From: Tenuifilum thalassicum
GTDB lineage: Bacteria > Bacteroidota > Bacteroidia > Bacteroidales > Tenuifilaceae
Length of the DNA stretch: 64,000 nucleotides
Reading direction: 5' to 3'
Assembly: GCF_013265555.1 (NCBI RefSeq)
Contig: NZ_CP041345.1
Location: forward strand, 1,286,581 to 1,350,580
Shown in pieces: positions 1-38,974 of this stretch (positions are counted from its first letter, which is position 1; every line of letters starts with the position of its first letter). The notes beneath the pieces are model-generated. The model worked only from the letters and a program-made list of their open reading frames with translations. It was not told where the DNA came from and searched no databases. The position numbers and the translations under genes are program-made.

Positions 1-2993
<2,993 letters not shown>

Positions 2994-3032
2994 CTAATCG
3001 ATTTTTAAAGTATTAACAGTAAAAGATTCGAA

Positions 3033-4895
3033 ATGGATAGAAATACAATTATTGGACTTGTGCTCATATTTTTAATTATGATTGGTTTTGGGTACTTCAC
3101 TCAGCCATCAAAGGAGGAGCGAGAAGCAATGCAACGAAAGGCCGATTCAATAGCACAGGTTCAAGCATTGCAACAACAGAAAAAATTGGAAGAGGAGAAA
3201 GCTGAGAAAAAAGTTGCATCGATAGAAGTTGACACTATTAAGCAAGAACAGGTTGAAAGCCAATTAGGAGCCTTCTCTAATGCTACATCAGGTGTTGAAA
3301 AATTTGTTACCCTCGAGAACGATCTAATGAAGGTTACGCTTACATCTAAGGGGGGTAGGGTGTACTCTGTAGAACTTAAAAAATACAAAACCTACAATGG
3401 CGATCCCCTTGTGCTTTTTACTGGCGATGAGAACACTTTTGGTCTTCAATTCTGGGGCGATAACAAGGCAATTAAAACTAATGATCTCTTTTTTACACCA
3501 CAATCTAGCGACTCCGTTATTGTTGCATCAGCCGATTCTGTTTCTCTAACAATGCGACTTCAAGCAGGCGATAGTGCATACATCGATTATACATACACTA
3601 TCAAGCCAGAGAGCTATATGCTTGGTTTTGATATCAAGTTCTCGGGACTAGATAAAACCATTGGAAACAGAATGGGATATATAGATTTAATTTGGGATAC
3701 TAAATTATTACACTTAGAAAAAGGACTACAGAATGAGCAGAACTATACAACAATAGCTTATCTGTTCCAAAATGGCGATTACGAAGAGCTTAATCCTAGG
3801 AGCAAAGGGGCTGAAAAGGAGGAAATATCTAACAAATTAAAATGGGTGAATTTTAAGCACCAGTTTTTCTCTTCTGTTATTGTTGCTAAAGATCATTTTG
3901 TAAATGCCGATTTGTTATCCGAAAAGTTGAACGATGGCAATCATGTTAAACATTTTAATGCCCGACTTGCTCTACCTTTCCAAAATTTTGCTCAAGAAAC
4001 CATTAATTTAAGCCTATTCTTTGGTCCGAACCATTTCAAAACTCTTGAAGCCTATGGCTTAGGCTTTGAGAAGGTTGTACCTCTTGGAAGCAATATTATT
4101 CGTTGGATTAATAAGTATGTGGTAATTAATGTATTTAACTTTTTAAGCCGATTTATTTCTAACTACGGTCTAATTATACTTATCCTAACCATACTTATCA
4201 AGCTTGTTCTTTTCCCATTAACATACAAGTCATATTCAAGTTCAGCCAAAATGAGGGTGCTTAAACCTCAGATTGATGAAATTAATGCTAAATACCCTAA
4301 GAAAGAGGATGCCATGAAGAAACAGCAAGCTGTAATGGCCCTCTACAAAAAAGTTGGGGTTAATCCAATGGGCGGATGTATTCCTGTTCTTATCCAGTTC
4401 CCTATACTTATTGCTATGTTCCGTTTCTTCCCTGCATCGTTTGAGTTAAGGCAACAAAGCTTCCTTTGGGCTGATGACCTTTCTTCTTTCGACTCTATCC
4501 TTAATCTTCCTTTCTCTATTCCTTGGTATGGCGATCATGTCAGCTTGTTTACCCTTTTAATGGCAGTTGCAATGTTCGTAACATCGAAAATGAACGCCGA
4601 TCAAATGGGTGATTCAAACGCTCAAATGCCTGGCATGAAGTTTATGATGACTTGGATGATGCCTATTATGCTTCTTTTATGGTTCAATAACTATTCTGCT
4701 GGTTTGAGCTATTACTACTTCCTTTCTAACCTTATTACCATTGGCCAAACCTTTATGATTCGCCGTTTTGTTGATGATAAGGCTTTACTTGCCAAACTTC
4801 ATGAAAACGCTAAGAAGCCAGTCACAAAGTCTAAATGGCAACAGCGACTTGAAGAAATGGCTAAACAACAGCAGCAAGCTAAAAAGAAAAAGTAA
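3033..4895 (+). CDS. yidC: Membrane protein insertase YidC
   Basis: Inserts and folds inner-membrane proteins, alone or with SecYEG. The 620-residue protein has the gram-negative layout: an N-terminal membrane anchor (about 5-22), a charged linker, a large periplasmic beta domain (about 85-345), then the conserved insertase core with several membrane segments from about residue 375 (including LIILILTILIKLVLFPLTY), the conserved NPMGGCIPVLIQFP stretch, and a Lys/Gln-rich cytoplasmic tail. It follows pyrG on the same strand and is closed by a strong terminator. Confidence 0.97.
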   Translation: MDRNTIIGLVLIFLIMIGFGYFTQPSKEEREAMQRKADSIAQVQALQQQKKLEEEKAEKKVASIEVDTIKQEQVESQLGAFSNATSGVEKFVTLENDLMKVTLTSKGGRVYSVELKKYKTYNGDPLVLFTGDENTFGLQFWGDNKAIKTNDLFFTPQSSDSVIVASADSVSLTMRLQAGDSAYIDYTYTIKPESYMLGFDIKFSGLDKTIGNRMGYIDLIWDTKLLHLEKGLQNEQNYTTIAYLFQNGDYEELNPRSKGAEKEEISNKLKWVNFKHQFFSSVIVAKDHFVNADLLSEKLNDGNHVKHFNARLALPFQNFAQETINLSLFFGPNHFKTLEAYGLGFEKVVPLGSNIIRWINKYVVINVFNFLSRFISNYGLIILILTILIKLVLFPLTYKSYSSSAKMRVLKPQIDEINAKYPKKEDAMKKQQAVMALYKKVGVNPMGGCIPVLIQFPILIAMFRFFPASFELRQQSFLWADDLSSFDSILNLPFSIPWYGDHVSLFTLLMAVAMFVTSKMNADQMGDSNAQMPGMKFMMTWMMPIMLLLWFNNYSAGLSYYYFLSNLITIGQTFMIRRFVDDKALLAKLHENAKKPVTKSKWQQRLEEMAKQQQQAKKKK

Positions 4896-27156: not shown

Positions 27157-27630
27157 ATGGAAAACATGAAGTATGCTGGTTTTTGGTGGCGTTTTTTAGC
27201 CTATCTAATTGATGCAATAGTTCTTTGGGTGGTTAACCTTATTGTAATTTCACCATTAATTGGATTATTTGGGCTTTCAGCAGCTAGTTCTATGTCAGCT
27301 GATATGACGCAATCAGAAGCCATTGGTATGGCTGGAGCATTCTTTGGAGCTGCAATGGTTACTAATTTAGCGTTAATTGTAATTGCATGGCTTTACTTTG
27401 CAATAATGGAATCGTCAAAGTTCCAGGGTACTCTTGGTAAAATGGCTATAGGTATCATTGTTACCGATTTGGAAGGGAATAGGATTTCTTTTGCACGTGC
27501 AACTGGCCGCTATTTTGGGAAAATACTTTCTAGCATGATCTTATTGATAGGTTATATCATGGCTGGTTTTACCGAGAAAAAACAGGCATTGCATGATATG
27601 CTTGCATCAACATTAGTTTGGAAAAAGTAG
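27157..27630 (+). CDS. RDD family membrane protein
   Basis: A 157-residue protein that opens with the RDD-type motif YAGFWWRFLAYLIDAIVLWVV and has three to four membrane segments (about 8-40, 62-88, 118-140), with KFQGTLGKMAIGIIVTDLEG between them and KKQALHDMLASTLVW near the end. RDD proteins are small polytopic proteins with proposed transport or stress roles. It stands alone, closed by a strong hairpin. Confidence 0.88.
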   Translation: MENMKYAGFWWRFLAYLIDAIVLWVVNLIVISPLIGLFGLSAASSMSADMTQSEAIGMAGAFFGAAMVTNLALIVIAWLYFAIMESSKFQGTLGKMAIGIIVTDLEGNRISFARATGRYFGKILSSMILLIGYIMAGFTEKKQALHDMLASTLVWKK

Positions 27631-27650
27631 TTTTATCGTTTTATTAATTA

Positions 27651-27680
27651 AAAAGGGTATCGTTTTCGATACCCTTTTAA
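27651..27680. terminator. Bidirectional terminator between the RDD and AroA-like genes
   Basis: A perfect 12-bp stem AAAAGGGTATCG / CGATACCCTTTT (27651-27662 with 27667-27678) with a TTTT loop. A/T runs on each side let it serve both convergent genes. Confidence 0.88.
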
Positions 27681-27681
27681 G

Positions 27682-28929
27682 TTATTGCAGTATAGTTACT
27701 TCAAAATCAAGTTTTTTAATTTCTTCCCAAAAGGTTGTATATGATTTACTGGTTATTCGGGCATTGTCCATAACTATTTTTTTACCCAGTATTGCAAATG
27801 GTGCAAGCGACATGGCTACCCTATGATCGTTTTGCGAGTCACATTCAAGTTGCTTTAACTTATTAAGATTAGATTTCCCGTCAAATTCCAGAATTTCTGT
27901 TTGATTCTCTTGTTTTACGATAATCTTTGCCCCAATTTTTTCAAACTCTTTTTGAATGGCTTCAAGTCTATCAGGTTCTTTTGTGTGAAATTTCTCTGTT
28001 CCTGTAATTGAGAAAGGAATACCCAATCCTAGGCAGGTAAAAAGGACAGCTGGTGCCAAATCGGACTGATTTTTAAAATCATAGCTAAAATGATTAGCCA
28101 CCTTGCCCTTGCGCTTAATAATTACTGAATCTTCTTTAATTAGTGTTTTAACACCAAGATTTTCAAAAATATTAATAACTGCTGTGTCGCATTGAAAGCT
28201 ATCAGGTTTCAGTCCAGTTATCTCAACTTCCCCCTTTTCTGAAAGGGCAACCGCTTCGTACCAATACGAGGATAAAGACCAGTCTGCCTCAACATTTAAC
28301 TCACTACCATCGTTTATCTGATGTTCAATTAGAACTTCGTTTTCATCCCAATCAACGTTAACACCCATAAACTGTAAGGCTCGAAGTGTCATGGTTGGAT
28401 AATCTTCTTTAAGTATCCAATCCTTAAGTTCCTCTATATCATCGATACTAGATTGCGGATTGATGAGCATTCGTGCCTCAATCATTTTGCTATAAATGGA
28501 ACCCTCAACTCTAAGTATTTTTCCTCTTAGATTCTTACCTATAATTCGTAGAGGAGGATTACCAAAACGTTCTTCGTATTTTACCTCCAAGCCATTCTTT
28601 TGGAGTAATGTGGCAATTTTTTCGGTAGCACTCCCTTTTAAAATGTTAGAGGATGAGATAACCCATTCGCCACCAAAGTACTTAATGAAGGATTGAATAT
28701 GCCTTAGGGCTTGTGCCGATTTCCCCGATTTGCCTTTAAGCCCTTTCTTGAATATATCATGATTAATTATTTCAACCCCTTCGGTATCCTTCTGAATGGC
28801 GCTTTGCTTTAATGATGTGTCTTTTAAAACTCTTATGACTAGCTGTTTGTATGAAACTGTTCGTGTTGGAGGAATGTTTACCATTCCTTTTATTTTAGAG
28901 TCATTTTTGATTATTTGATATTTTACCAT
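27682..28929 (-). CDS. AroA-like protein (EPSP synthase family), divergent N-half
   Basis: A 415-residue protein whose C-terminal half is clearly of the 5-enolpyruvylshikimate-3-phosphate synthase family: ADWSLSSYWYEAVAL, SDLAPAVLF, HTKEPDRLEAI, NDHRVAMSLAPFA and SKSYTTFWEE. These hold the counterparts of catalytic Asp, Glu/Arg, His/Arg and Lys. The N-half has lost usual motifs: IPPTRTVSYKQL replaces the KSxSNR start, GKSGKSAQALR the GNAGTxxR loop, and GSIYSKMIEARML the SSQ substrate-binding strand. It may be a repurposed paralogue or a very divergent AroA. The frame reaches 28953; MVKYQIIKND at 28929 is the better start. Confidence 0.7.
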   Translation of the reverse strand: MVKYQIIKNDSKIKGMVNIPPTRTVSYKQLVIRVLKDTSLKQSAIQKDTEGVEIINHDIFKKGLKGKSGKSAQALRHIQSFIKYFGGEWVISSSNILKGSATEKIATLLQKNGLEVKYEERFGNPPLRIIGKNLRGKILRVEGSIYSKMIEARMLINPQSSIDDIEELKDWILKEDYPTMTLRALQFMGVNVDWDENEVLIEHQINDGSELNVEADWSLSSYWYEAVALSEKGEVEITGLKPDSFQCDTAVINIFENLGVKTLIKEDSVIIKRKGKVANHFSYDFKNQSDLAPAVLFTCLGLGIPFSITGTEKFHTKEPDRLEAIQKEFEKIGAKIIVKQENQTEILEFDGKSNLNKLKQLECDSQNDHRVAMSLAPFAILGKKIVMDNARITSKSYTTFWEEIKKLDFEVTILQ

Positions 28930-28979
28930 TTTGTTAGGGTTTAAAAATTGCAATGCTGTAAAAGTAAAAAAATAATTTA

Positions 28980-29777
28980 TTACCTATTCATAAGTTTAAG
29001 GTCTAGCTTATGTTTGAGTTCATCGGGATTAATGTCATAATCAATTCGTCCATTATCGGCAATACTTATTTTCCCAGTTTCTTCTGATACTATTATTACC
29101 AAAGCATCAGTTGCTTCAGTTAATCCTAAAGCTGCCTTATGGCGCATTCCAAAATGTGGAGGAAGATTAAGGTTCTCTGAAATTGGAAGTACACAGCGAG
29201 CAGCAACAATCATATTATTATCAATAATTACTGCCCCATCGTGCAAGGGACTATTTTTGAAAAAGATATTTTCAAGTAATCGGGCAGATATGTTGGCATT
29301 GATAATATCGCCTGTTTCGGCATAAACCTCAAGATTCGAGTTTCGAGCAATAACTATTAATGCGCCTGTTTTTGTTAAGGAAAGGTTCGTACATGCTCGC
29401 GAAATAGATTCAGTATCAATAAGTATTTTGCTCGAAGGTTCATTACCTAAAATGGATTCAATAGCGTTTTTACCCTTTGATGTATATTTTGCTCCAAGGA
29501 TAAGTAGAAACTTCCTTATTTCTTGTTGAAAAAGAATGATTAATGCAATTACTCCTACCCCAATTACTTGTCCTAAAATGCTACCCAGCAGTTCCATGTT
29601 TAGGGCTTTAACAACAAGCCACACTACATAAAGCAGTACAATCCCAGAGAAGATATTCATGGCTGCAGTGCCCCTTATAAGCAGGTAGAACTGATAAAGC
29701 AGGAACGCAACGATAAAAATATCGATGATGTCAAGTATCCGAATATGAATAAAAAGTGGTGTAAGGAAGCAGCCCAT
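28980..29777 (-). CDS. cdaA: Diadenylate cyclase CdaA
   Basis: Makes cyclic di-AMP from two ATP. The 265 residues start with three membrane segments (about 12-30, 38-58, 62-85), followed by a cytoplasmic DAC domain with LHDGAVII and GMRHKAALGLTE, the DGA and RHR-type motifs. The second shows RHK where RHR is most common. The gene begins 2 bases after the folP stop, a common pairing in Bacteroidota. No CdaR-type regulator is adjacent. Confidence 0.93.
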   Translation of the reverse strand: MGCFLTPLFIHIRILDIIDIFIVAFLLYQFYLLIRGTAAMNIFSGIVLLYVVWLVVKALNMELLGSILGQVIGVGVIALIILFQQEIRKFLLILGAKYTSKGKNAIESILGNEPSSKILIDTESISRACTNLSLTKTGALIVIARNSNLEVYAETGDIINANISARLLENIFFKNSPLHDGAVIIDNNMIVAARCVLPISENLNLPPHFGMRHKAALGLTEATDALVIIVSEETGKISIADNGRIDYDINPDELKHKLDLKLMNR

Positions 29778-29779
29778 GC

Positions 29780-30661
29780 TTATATAAATTGGAATTCAGG
29801 TTGGCTATTAACAATATTCATTAGTTTTATTGCTTCAACAGCGGGCCTAACATCGTGCACCCTTAGAATCGATGCGCCTTTCTGCAAGGCTATTGTATTT
29901 AATATGGTAGTTCCATTTAAAGCCTTTTCGGGCGAAATGCCTAGTGCTTTGTAAATCATCGATTTTCTTGAAATGCCAACAAGCAATGGCAGTTCAAGTA
30001 GGCGGAATGTTTCAAGGTTTTTAAGAATGGTGTAATTATGTTCGATGGTCTTACCAAAACCAAAACCTGGGTCTATAATTATGTCCTTAACGTTGTGTTG
30101 TTTTAGCTTCTCTATCTTTTCATTAAAAAAAAGTACAAGCTCCCTAATTACATTTTCGTAAGTTGGGTTCTGTTGCATATTTTCAGGTGTTCCTTTCATG
30201 TGCATAAGAATGTAAGGAACATTTAGCTCAGCAACGGTTTTAAACATTGCTGAATCAATTTCGCCTGCCGAAATATCGTTTATAATATCAACGTTAAAAT
30301 CCTTAACTACTCTTTTAGCAACCGACGAACGAAAGGTATCGACCGAGATAATTGCATCGGGAAATTTTTTTCTAATGGCAGTAAGAGCTTTGTTTAAGCG
30401 TTTCATCTCCTCATTTTCCGAAACAGGTTTAGAGCCAGGACGTGTAGAACAAGCTCCAACATCAATTATATCTCCGCCCTCTGCAAGTATTTGCTGAGCT
30501 CTTTTGGCAATGCTGTAAGAAGACCTGTATCTGCTGCCGCTAAAAAATGAATCTTTTGTAACATTAATAATTCCCATTACAAATGGCTTGTCTATTGTAA
30601 TGAGTTTTCCGTTACAGTGTAACGTCTTTCTGGGAATAAAAACTGAACGTTGTTGTTCCAT
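29780..30661 (-). CDS. folP: Dihydropteroate synthase
   Basis: Condenses 6-hydroxymethyl-dihydropterin pyrophosphate with p-aminobenzoate to make dihydropteroate, the sulfonamide target. The 293 residues have the signature MGIINVTKDSFFSGSRY, GGDIIDVGACSTRPGS, DIINDISAG, PGFGFGKTIEHNY and GISRKSMI. It is the first gene of the folP-cdaA unit and uses the product of the PabB step encoded at 19361. Confidence 0.96.
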   Translation of the reverse strand: MEQQRSVFIPRKTLHCNGKLITIDKPFVMGIINVTKDSFFSGSRYRSSYSIAKRAQQILAEGGDIIDVGACSTRPGSKPVSENEEMKRLNKALTAIRKKFPDAIISVDTFRSSVAKRVVKDFNVDIINDISAGEIDSAMFKTVAELNVPYILMHMKGTPENMQQNPTYENVIRELVLFFNEKIEKLKQHNVKDIIIDPGFGFGKTIEHNYTILKNLETFRLLELPLLVGISRKSMIYKALGISPEKALNGTTILNTIALQKGASILRVHDVRPAVEAIKLMNIVNSQPEFQFI

Positions 30662-35605: not shown

Positions 35606-38600
35606 TTAATTTTTAATAAACTGTTTTGTTATTGGCTCTTTTTCATCATCTATTGAGATTGTATAAATGCCGGGTGCCAAATCGTTAATATTTATGCTTG
35701 TATTTCTTTCGTTTAACATTTGGAACTTAACAACTGCTCCTCTCATATCGTAAATCCTTGCTGAAACTTCACCTTCTATTCCATTAAGCATAATATTTAG
35801 GCTTTCTTTTGCAGGATTAGGGTAAATCGTGAATATCTCAACCTTTTCATTACCTAAATCTTCAGCAAAAGGAGTATCAGTTGTTGGAGCCGATGAGCTG
35901 CTAGTTATATTCACACTGTAATCCTCAACCTCACCGTAGGTAAATGTTTCGCAAGCGGTTGGGGCAGCGTTATACTTCATGCTCACACGCATGCGGGTTA
36001 CGCCAAGCGTTGCTGTTGATGGTATGCTTACAGTTGCCGATAGCGTGCTGCTACTTGATGATGAGCCTGAAACCACCTTTTCGGAGTCCTCAAAGGTTCC
36101 ATTGTGGTTAAAGTCAATCCAGATGGCCCAGTACTCTGTATATGAGCTGCTACTGAATCCTGCGCTTATGTAGATAGTATTTGAAGAACCCCTTGCTACG
36201 GTAGCTTGCATGCTAGTCATATCCTTGTAACCACCATCATTACCAGATGTACGGTTAATTCCTGCAAACTGAACCAGGTCAATCCACTCGTAGCTGGAGT
36301 TTTTGCCCTTTGAAGTACAGTAGCTTACCGACGAGCCGCTTTCGGTAGTAAAGCTAACCTGGCTACCGTATGATGTGCCCTGGGCGTTGGTTGCATATGC
36401 CCTTGCATAGTAGGTGGTGTTGGGCGATAGCCCTGTTAGGGTTGCGCTGAATGAGCCAGTACCCGAACCGCTTGCCACCTTGCTATTCGAAATGGTTGGG
36501 TTCTGCGATGTGCTGTAGCATATACCACGAGCTGTTACGCTTGCGCCTCCGTTCGATGTTACATTACCGCTAACGGTAGCCGAGCTTGAGGTTACGTTGC
36601 TAACGCTTCCCGTTGTTACGGTTGGGGTTGAAGCTGCGCTACCAGCGGTTACGGATACGTCATCAATGTACCAGTAGTCGATGTTGTAGATATTACCCTC
36701 AACCACAAAGGCAATGTAGGTGGTTGAAGAGTTCAGGTTGGTTGTAATGGTAACTGTTTCGGTACGGGCGGTAATGTTTGATGTAGAGGTGCTCTTTGAC
36801 CATGTGGTGTTGGTCCAGCTGGACTTATCGTTCGAGGTTTGAACGCGTAGCGTAGCACCTGAGCTATAGGCATCGAACATGTGCTTGAATGTAAGGGTGA
36901 TCTGGCTCTTGCCAACGGTGTTGATGGCAGGTGTAATCAGGCGGGTGGTGCCTGGGTTTACATTCTGGTAGCTGCACTTCATCTCGTATGCAGAACCGCC
37001 AGCCTTGTTGCTGTTGGAAACGCTCCAGCGCTCGGTTATGCCGCTACCAGTGTTTTGTGTTGTCCATCCGCTTGGTAGGCTTGAGCTGCTGAAGCTTTGC
37101 GAGTATGGCAAGCTAACACCCGTTGGGTTCGCCTGTGTGGTGAACGACTTGATAGAAGAGTAGCTACTCGTGCCATAGGAGTTCTTAGCCCTTACGTGCC
37201 ACTCATAAGTGGTGTTGGCAGAAAGGCCTGTTGCGTTGTACGAGTTTGTTGTAACGTTATAGGTTGAGTATGACCCGCCCTGAGGCCTGATCTGAACATC
37301 ATAGGAGGTTGCCCCGCTAACAGCGCTCCAGCTAAGTGTTGCACTGTTTGTGGTGATGTTTGAAGTTGATAGCCCACTAGGAGTAGCAGGAGCAGTTCCA
37401 CCACTAGAGCCACCCATAAATGCAAATGTAATATCTTTAGTTGATGAGTTCTCTGCTATATTGGTAATTGGTTTACCTGTGTTTGCACCTGCCCAAGATT
37501 TCATGCTAGGTGTAGTGGCATCGGTAAACGAGGTTTTATTGCTAGTTCCTGGAAAAGGACAACCAGCACTGTTTATGCTTCCGTATGAACTTGCTGATGA
37601 ACTTGGATTTGTGGTTGCACTCGCACAAACAGGATACATTTTTTGCGGATAGGATGCATTTACATTATTATAGTTACTAGCCGACACTACATCTTTATGA
37701 ACGTGATAGATCAGAAGCCCATGGCCTGGAACTGCAGCGTCAAAGCCAGTTTTTTGGCGATTCTCAATTAACCAGTATTCCCCACTGGTTGTTGAATTGA
37801 TCTGGTAAAAACTCTTGTTCGACTCAACAGGCTTTACTGTTATATTGGCAGCTGAGGATAGGATGGTTGCATTTGCCCAACCATAAATCTTAACCTTTGT
37901 ATAGGCATTGTGGTGCGCAGGAGTATCGCCATTGTTATTCCAAGATCCGCTTGCCATCATATCCCAGTTACCTGTTCCGTAAAATTGACCTCCAGTACTG
38001 TAATTGGTGTCATAGTAATCAGGTGCACCTAGAACATGACCAAACTCGTGGCAAATTACTCCAATTGCTGTTATTGTTGAACCTGAATTACCTCTAAGTT
38101 CTGCTGAACAGGAATATTTACTAATTGTTACACCATCTTTTGTTACAGGAGTAATATTCCATGCATGAGCCCAAATGGCATTGGAACTAGCACCTGCCTC
38201 TTCTCCGTAACCTGCATAAATTACGTAAACACCATCAACTGTACCGTCTCCATCGTTATCATAATTGGCAAAGTTTGCCTGTGCGTCGGCAGCATTAACA
38301 GCTTCAGTGACTAAAGCTCTTGGGTTTGAGTCGTTACCATTGTAATCGTTTCCACCATAGTACGACATATTTTGGCTAGCAGTATATGGTCCAAATACAT
38401 CAACTGTTAGGTTGAACTGATTCCATGAGTTTTCTAAGTAGTAATCCTTTACGCTACCTGAACCAACTTGATTAAAAAGGGTGTTAAAATCAGACTTAGA
38501 CTTGGTAAATGCTCTATCCTTAAAACCCATTAGAATACAAACTAACTTTCTGTTTCCTGTTGTAGGAAATGCTTTTTGAGCTTCTGCATTTTTAATTTCC

Positions 38601-38974
38601 CATATGCTCTTCATCATTGAAAGCTGGCTTTTGCTATAGTATAGCCCTTTGCTTATCTTTGAAAGAAGTGCTTTCTCTTTAGCAGTTCTTTCTTTTATGT
38701 TGCTAACCTCAATTCCTGAAAGTTGCAAATCGCCTTTGGTATCTTGAACAGCGTATTCATAGATGCCTTTGCTGTTGAGTAGGATTGTATAACCATCCTC
38801 TGTAGTAGCCCATTTTACCTTTTCGTCACCTTTAAGGAAAATGGCTAATGTTTTACCATTGGCTTGTTTATACTGAATAAGCCCAGGATAAGCTGGAACT
38901 GCATAAATTTGGCTTACCCATAGTGTGCATGCAACTAAACACATGCTCATTAAACCGAGTAGTTTTTTTCTCAT
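35606..38974 (-). CDS. Secreted M6 family metalloprotease with Fn3, adhesin-like and T9SS sorting domains
   Basis: A 1122-residue protein with a signal peptide (about 1-25). The M6 (InhA-like) peptidase domain spans about 75-520, with the zinc motif HEFGHVLGAPDYYD (from His309) and a conserved downstream Met-containing turn (WDMMASGSW). Then follow a fibronectin type III domain (about 535-615), a MAM/cleaved-adhesin-like beta-sandwich (about 625-785), a second Fn3-like domain (785-880), a GEVEDY domain (about 885-1030) and a type IX secretion C-terminal sorting domain (IYPNPAKESLNIM to the end). Predicted to be exported and attached by the T9SS. The DNA for the middle domains is visibly GC-richer than the rest of the gene. 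Confidence 0.92.
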   Translation of the reverse strand: MRKKLLGLMSMCLVACTLWVSQIYAVPAYPGLIQYKQANGKTLAIFLKGDEKVKWATTEDGYTILLNSKGIYEYAVQDTKGDLQLSGIEVSNIKERTAKEKALLSKISKGLYYSKSQLSMMKSIWEIKNAEAQKAFPTTGNRKLVCILMGFKDRAFTKSKSDFNTLFNQVGSGSVKDYYLENSWNQFNLTVDVFGPYTASQNMSYYGGNDYNGNDSNPRALVTEAVNAADAQANFANYDNDGDGTVDGVYVIYAGYGEEAGASSNAIWAHAWNITPVTKDGVTISKYSCSAELRGNSGSTITAIGVICHEFGHVLGAPDYYDTNYSTGGQFYGTGNWDMMASGSWNNNGDTPAHHNAYTKVKIYGWANATILSSAANITVKPVESNKSFYQINSTTSGEYWLIENRQKTGFDAAVPGHGLLIYHVHKDVVSASNYNNVNASYPQKMYPVCASATTNPSSSASSYGSINSAGCPFPGTSNKTSFTDATTPSMKSWAGANTGKPITNIAENSSTKDITFAFMGGSSGGTAPATPSGLSTSNITTNSATLSWSAVSGATSYDVQIRPQGGSYSTYNVTTNSYNATGLSANTTYEWHVRAKNSYGTSSYSSIKSFTTQANPTGVSLPYSQSFSSSSLPSGWTTQNTGSGITERWSVSNSNKAGGSAYEMKCSYQNVNPGTTRLITPAINTVGKSQITLTFKHMFDAYSSGATLRVQTSNDKSSWTNTTWSKSTSTSNITARTETVTITTNLNSSTTYIAFVVEGNIYNIDYWYIDDVSVTAGSAASTPTVTTGSVSNVTSSSATVSGNVTSNGGASVTARGICYSTSQNPTISNSKVASGSGTGSFSATLTGLSPNTTYYARAYATNAQGTSYGSQVSFTTESGSSVSYCTSKGKNSSYEWIDLVQFAGINRTSGNDGGYKDMTSMQATVARGSSNTIYISAGFSSSSYTEYWAIWIDFNHNGTFEDSEKVVSGSSSSSSTLSATVSIPSTATLGVTRMRVSMKYNAAPTACETFTYGEVEDYSVNITSSSSAPTTDTPFAEDLGNEKVEIFTIYPNPAKESLNIMLNGIEGEVSARIYDMRGAVVKFQMLNERNTSININDLAPGIYTISIDDEKEPITKQFIKN

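Follow-up and report, generated by a model that had tools for sequence, protein, structure and literature searches.

An aroA-like gene in the 64,000-nucleotide stretch of DNA analysed here (the window) appears to be the native aroA of its lineage, displaced by a second type of AroA. We refer to the window type as D, to the AroA from this genome's aro cluster as C-type, and to the canonical AroA of other Bacteroidales as N, or native. By tree and locus, D belongs to the native Bacteroidales aroA lineage; on alignment it has lost EPSP synthase signature residues, and it is probably devoid of EPSP synthase activity. Our preferred reading, to which we assign a probability of roughly 45%, is that D is the displaced native AroA, now a pseudoenzyme, acting by ligand-dependent binding to a partner protein, perhaps as an anion-binding partner or regulator.

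D lies on the minus strand at positions 28929 to 27682, with an intact frame of 415 amino acids plus a stop from the ATG at 28929. An in-frame TTG at 28953 would give 423 amino acids, and the plus-strand translation of 27682 to 28929 is interrupted by stops. The protein belongs to the EPSP_synthase superfamily (PF00275, 128 bits against a gathering cut-off of 22.8), with the match confined to residues 68–403. It did not reach the cut-off of the aroA equivalog model TIGR01356 (156.9 bits against 287.25). All 26 D proteins scored below this cut-off (best 228.3), and all five AroA controls scored above it (300.8–398). Nor is it a MurA by the models used: PRK09369 gave 15.4 bits against a cut-off of 297, and TIGR01072 (cut-off 392.7) gave no match at E ≤ 1.

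Residues are numbered after E. coli AroA (b0908), with which the window protein was aligned at the positions that we take, from the EPSP synthase literature, to form the active site. Eleven of these positions are changed (K22R, S23T, R27K, D49G, N94K, G96A, T97Q, R124S, S169Y, Q171K and S197K), and R100, S170, Y200, D313, K340, E341, R344, H385, R386 and K411 are unchanged. The changes fall on the substrate site of domain 1 (taken as residues 21–213; 28291 to 28869, minus strand), where the set K22, S23, R27, T97, R124, S169 and Q171 reads R, T, K, Q, S, Y and K. Here IPPTRTVSYKQL (residues 19–30, 28840 to 28875, minus strand) stands for the KSxSNR motif that holds K22, S23 and R27, GKSGKSAQALR (residues 66–76, 28702 to 28734, minus strand) stands for GNAGTxxR with R76, the counterpart of E. 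coli R100, retained, and GSIYSKMIEARML (residues 143–155, 28465 to 28503, minus strand) stands for GSxSSQ. Domain 2, apart from residues 1–20, spans residues 214–415 (27685 to 28290, minus strand) and carries D290, K317, E318, R321, H369, R370 and K395, corresponding to E. coli D313, K340, E341, R344, H385, R386 and K411; this set is complete in the window protein, though not in every D member. The first-pass annotation had described a protein with C-half EPSP synthase residues and replaced N-half motifs for shikimate-3-phosphate (S3P) and PEP, and the E. coli alignment, with the motifs in register, bears this out. Five of the replacements (K22R, R27K, G96A, R124S and Q171K) are common to all six genus-mates and so are not one genome's reading error; D49G, S169Y and S197K are peculiar to the window gene, and the others differ among the genus-mates.

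The order, Bacteroidales, follows from close relatives that carry names and from the taxonomic record of one, UBA4073. The one-contig 3.2 Mb genome contains three members of the superfamily, namely the window gene, a MurA and the C-type AroA in the aro cluster. The cluster (L047:780-8431) runs in one direction and holds much of the aromatic pathway in the order pheA-tyrA-DAHPS/chorismate mutase-aroB-aroD-aroE-aroA-aroC, with names read from translations and family tests made for AroA, aroB and aroC only. No shikimate kinase gene was recognised by eye within it. Both aroB and aroC are single in the genome and lie inside the cluster. The C-type AroA scores 398 bits with TIGR01356, above the cut-off, and departs from the signature residues only at positions 94, 97 and 336. 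Among 27 C-type AroAs, position 97 is L and position 169 is G in seven, with K22, S23, R27, R124 and Q171 invariant. The C-type AroA is probably the working enzyme of the genome. The genome search for a second aroA that had been proposed at the first pass recovered exactly this gene, and its presence here and in 24 of the 26 family genomes with D refutes the idea that the window gene is the only AroA of its lineage.

Of the 27 genomes in the window's family, 26 contain D, as do both genomes of a further family (f80). Of the copies in the window's family, 24 have a full-length open frame (412–456 codons, stop to stop) and two are cut by contig ends. A stop was flagged in two genomes (G200 and G204), yet their open frames span query residues 4–411 and 1–411. 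The only family genome without D (G207, 85% complete) yielded MurA pieces and a C-type AroA alone. C-type AroA accompanies D in 24 of the 26 family genomes, including G204, whose C-type gene is truncated at a contig end, and in both f80 genomes; the two in which a recheck again gave D without a C-type match are incomplete (77% and 63%). When a profile of the 26 D proteins was searched against 393 sampled Bacteroidales genomes, eight D proteins scored 542–648 bits and the next match 432, and D was not found in this sample outside the two families.

Outside these two families, C-type matches (at least 41% identity, E < 1e-92) occurred in 37 sampled genomes, of which 36 had no native match beside the C-type AroA and one (G099) did. 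In G099 (L045 and L046) the native and C-type AroAs occur together with motifs intact, and a genome of the same family (G369) also gave two matches. In G148 (L149, contig G148:C116, about 1951–3168) the native aroA is split over three frames, with an uninterrupted C-type match on another contig; this native copy is likely a pseudogene, or else an assembly error.

The maximum-likelihood tree of 80 proteins recovered D as monophyletic (UFB 100), nested among native AroAs and apart from the C-type. Two fragmentary D sequences (G199 and G202) were excluded from the tree and the residue counts, and one sequence (G108) was not used among the canonical AroAs. Of the 26 canonical AroAs that were used, 24 came in as the nearest to the query and do not represent a random draw. 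Membership of the native lineage by descent is supported both by this position inside the native AroA tree and by a locus shared with native AroAs in other genera. From tree position and shared neighbours together, D looks like the displaced native gene. The earlier description of D as an AroA paralogue therefore holds in outline, with the correction that tree and synteny mark D as the original copy, inherited vertically, and the C-type as the displacing one. The f80 proteins (G184 and G080; L039 and L040) also fall within the window's family in the D tree, beside G216 (UFB 96), a grouping absent from the C-type tree; this placement might reflect long branches or transfer.

In the window, D lies 50 bp downstream of cdaA (28980 to 29777, minus strand), itself preceded by folP (29780 to 30661, minus strand), all in one direction; both names come from the first-pass annotation, and both genes are given here as context only. 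The gene order confirms the position recorded there, after folP-cdaA and away from the aro genes. D stands behind folP-cdaA (window 27157–30661) in the window's genus and in g153–g155, and elsewhere in the rest of the family. In g2, g151, g156, g157, four of five genomes of g152, and f80, D adjoins a small hypothetical gene, with DprA and TatD, and several times also proline dehydrogenase, nearby where the flank is long enough. The native AroAs of G064 and G149 adjoin the same small gene and DprA, and that of G170 adjoins proline dehydrogenase; these shared neighbours are a lower bound, as the flanking DNA available extends no further than about 1.5 kb for 22 other native AroAs and about 1.2–2 kb for that of G099. 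Thus the neighbours of the native-lineage locus recur in other genera of the family and in f80, the window's genus has D at a different locus, and the gene seems to have been relocated once. A functional tie of D to folP-cdaA was considered and is unsupported beyond part of the family, D sitting elsewhere in other genera. Since the neighbourhoods differ between genera, genomic context indicates no partner for D. A promoter and terminator scan gave site counts close to those of shuffled sequences (14 against 14.5; 4 against 3.1). Elsewhere in the window, a large protease-like gene (1122 aa, 35606 to 38974) sits in a stretch whose G+C content reaches 0.48, against about 0.35 on either side.

Nei–Gojobori dN/dS for D was 0.044–0.102 in nine of 11 pairs, the other two, the window gene's own among them, being saturated; the five least saturated pairs gave 0.060–0.097, and others were near saturation. 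For the C-type, nine of ten pairs gave 0.038–0.157 and one pair was identical. In the pairs measured, these substitution rates place D under purifying selection at the level of a working gene, and values of 0.04–0.10 indicate that it makes a needed protein.

Conservation in the active site has nonetheless fallen. None of the 26 native or 27 C-type AroAs departs from K22, S23, R27, D49, R124, Q171, D313 or E341, whereas between 8 and 18 of the 26 D proteins lack any given one of them (retained in 17, 11, 8, 11, 10, 9, 18 and 9, respectively); T97 and S169 are likewise invariant in the 26 native AroAs. Where E341 is expected, E or D occurs in 18 of 26 and C, A, Y or V in eight; the D313 position holds N, H or E in eight and the H385 position G or Y in three. 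Other residues persist: R344 and R386 in all 26, R100 and Y200 in 25, H385 in 23, and K340 and K411 in 19, with R at the K411 position in a further four. D has a mean pairwise identity of 0.47 at the S3P site and 0.55 at the PEP/catalytic site, where N has 0.93 and 1.00; the average column gives 0.42 in D and 0.46 in N. The D cleft has dropped from near invariance to a level little above average conservation. Within the window's genus, D313, K340, R344, H385, R386 and K411 are retained in 7/7 and E341 is E or D. Identity between D and N is 0.28 in domain 1 and 0.38 in domain 2, against 0.28 in both for C-type and N, so that by this measure D has diverged more in domain 1 than in domain 2. Alongside the lowered substrate-site conservation, domain 1 has a newly conserved stretch at 181–210; residues newly conserved in D are L200, D207, N191, W194, G208, E202, E198, W89, K132, R140 and those at 331–360.

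An AlphaFold model of the window protein built with 26 D rows (pLDDT 87.2) has strands in place of the two substrate-binding helices of EPSP synthases. Adding 26 canonical rows did not restore the usual fold, and pLDDT fell to 79.2, mostly in domain 1. In both models residues 28–35 and 149–156 are strand and 162–174 helix, whereas the corresponding EPSP synthase segments are two helices and then a strand. Superposition with EPSP synthases takes in about 215 residues of each model at 2.0–3.0 Å, with Z of 25–26 to the closest; we assume these residues to be domain 2, as the match listing gives first and last residues only. The top Foldseek matches were EPSP synthases, but with a TM-score of about 0.45 and an rmsd of about 16 Å. 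Hydrophobic moments fit the models at E. coli 169–181 and 184–194 but not clearly at 24–36, and simple strand and helix propensities changed little at 169–181. The models hint that domain 1 of D may be partly remodelled. We treat refolding as a lead only, since confidence fell with the canonical rows.

Under the preferred reading, the native aroA would have been displaced by the C-type and the old copy retained as D, a putative pseudoenzyme. The S3P site in domain 1 has degenerated, and domain 2 would remain as a putative anion site for PEP or a similar anion. In EPSP synthases PEP is held by R344 and R386; with both arginines kept in domain 2, and H385 and K411 in most members, D may still bind such an anion. 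Conservation has shifted to the strand and hairpin segments 121–141, 181–210 and 331–360, which we take to lie on the outer sheets of the fold and which form a candidate docking surface. The C-type AroA, or else one of the other aro-cluster enzymes, would be the first candidate partner. As for the marks of a pseudoenzyme, catalytic residues were lost clade-wide under purifying selection, and domain 2 catalytic residues remain in the window's genus. There the altered cleft is also rather uniform, as in an enzyme with a changed substrate, which argues against a pseudoenzyme; across the clade, cleft conservation slightly above that of the average D column weighs in the same direction. A fuller scenario, in which domain 1 partly refolded after displacement (two substrate-binding helices to strands, the neighbouring strand to helix) and D became a conserved PEP-sensing pseudoenzyme controlling the incoming shikimate-pathway enzymes across the family, we consider improbable.

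A possible but doubtful alternative is that D is a new enolpyruvyl transferase whose acceptor for the enolpyruvyl group of PEP is not shikimate-3-phosphate, much as the MurA-related NikO transfers that group to UMP (PMC6801904). The PEP side fits, with R344 and R386 invariant, H385 in 23 of 26 and K or R at position 411 in 19 and 4 of 26, all kept in the window's genus, and the acceptor side is altered, with basic residues gained at 97, 103 and 171. Across the clade, however, E341, D313, R124 and H385 vary, which is hard to square with one conserved reaction, and no operon partner is constant. The first-pass proposal of another enolpyruvyl acceptor is accordingly disfavoured for the clade as a whole, since the residues of enolpyruvyl transfer vary between genera; it is most easily possible within the window's own genus, where they are kept.

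It is unlikely that the old cleft accommodates a different small molecule, whether for another enzymatic activity or for a binding function. Retention of R100, Y200, R344 and R386 in at least 25 of 26 D proteins would suit this, as would cleft positions slightly more conserved than the average column, but most of the remaining cleft residues differ between genera. We regard it as very unlikely that D is still an EPSP synthase that tolerates its changed residues and backs up the C-type AroA: domain 2 is intact in the window protein, part of the fold superposes, and the C-type differs from E. coli AroA at three positions (94, 97 and 336), so some positions can vary; against this stand the eight positions fixed in native and C-type AroAs but each missing from 8–18 of the 26 D, and the failure of 26/26 D to reach the equivalog cut-off. 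Decay towards loss, as in the 36 sampled genomes with the C-type only and the native aroA of G148 broken over three frames, is contradicted for D by dN/dS of 0.04–0.10 in measurable pairs and full-length frames in 24 family copies, and can practically be set aside.

The usual expectation is that the gene for a housekeeping enzyme disappears after a competing version has taken its place. In 36 other sampled genomes the C-type is indeed the only AroA seen, whereas one clade has kept and reworked its native AroA. The canonical native form, both copies intact (G099), a broken copy (G148) and the reworked D make up a comparison series, a natural one usable for asking how an enzyme may turn into a non-enzyme or change its job. 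D is also a gene that annotation could label AroA despite another AroA in the genome.

No paper on the D protein was among those listed in searches of the open-licence literature. D resembles the EPSP synthase AroA (TIGR01356, PF00275) in common descent, C-half residues and superposition of about half of the modelled structure, and differs from it in lacking the domain 1 substrate motifs, in scoring below the equivalog cut-off and in having another AroA beside it. With MurA and its paralogues it shares a related fold (Z of about 21–22 over about 210 residues of the D model), but it scores far below the murA cut-offs and the genome has a separate MurA. NikO offers an enolpyruvyl transferase turned to another acceptor; unlike D, it is close to MurA, serves an antibiotic pathway and retains catalysis (PMC6801904). 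The closest precedent, by analogy, is the plant shikimate kinase-like protein SKL1. It comes from plants, derives from another enzyme by gene duplication and has a known role in chloroplast biogenesis, all unlike D, but like D it is a shikimate-pathway relative that selection has maintained despite divergence of its shikimate-binding and catalytic sites (PMC2593004, PMC12203367).
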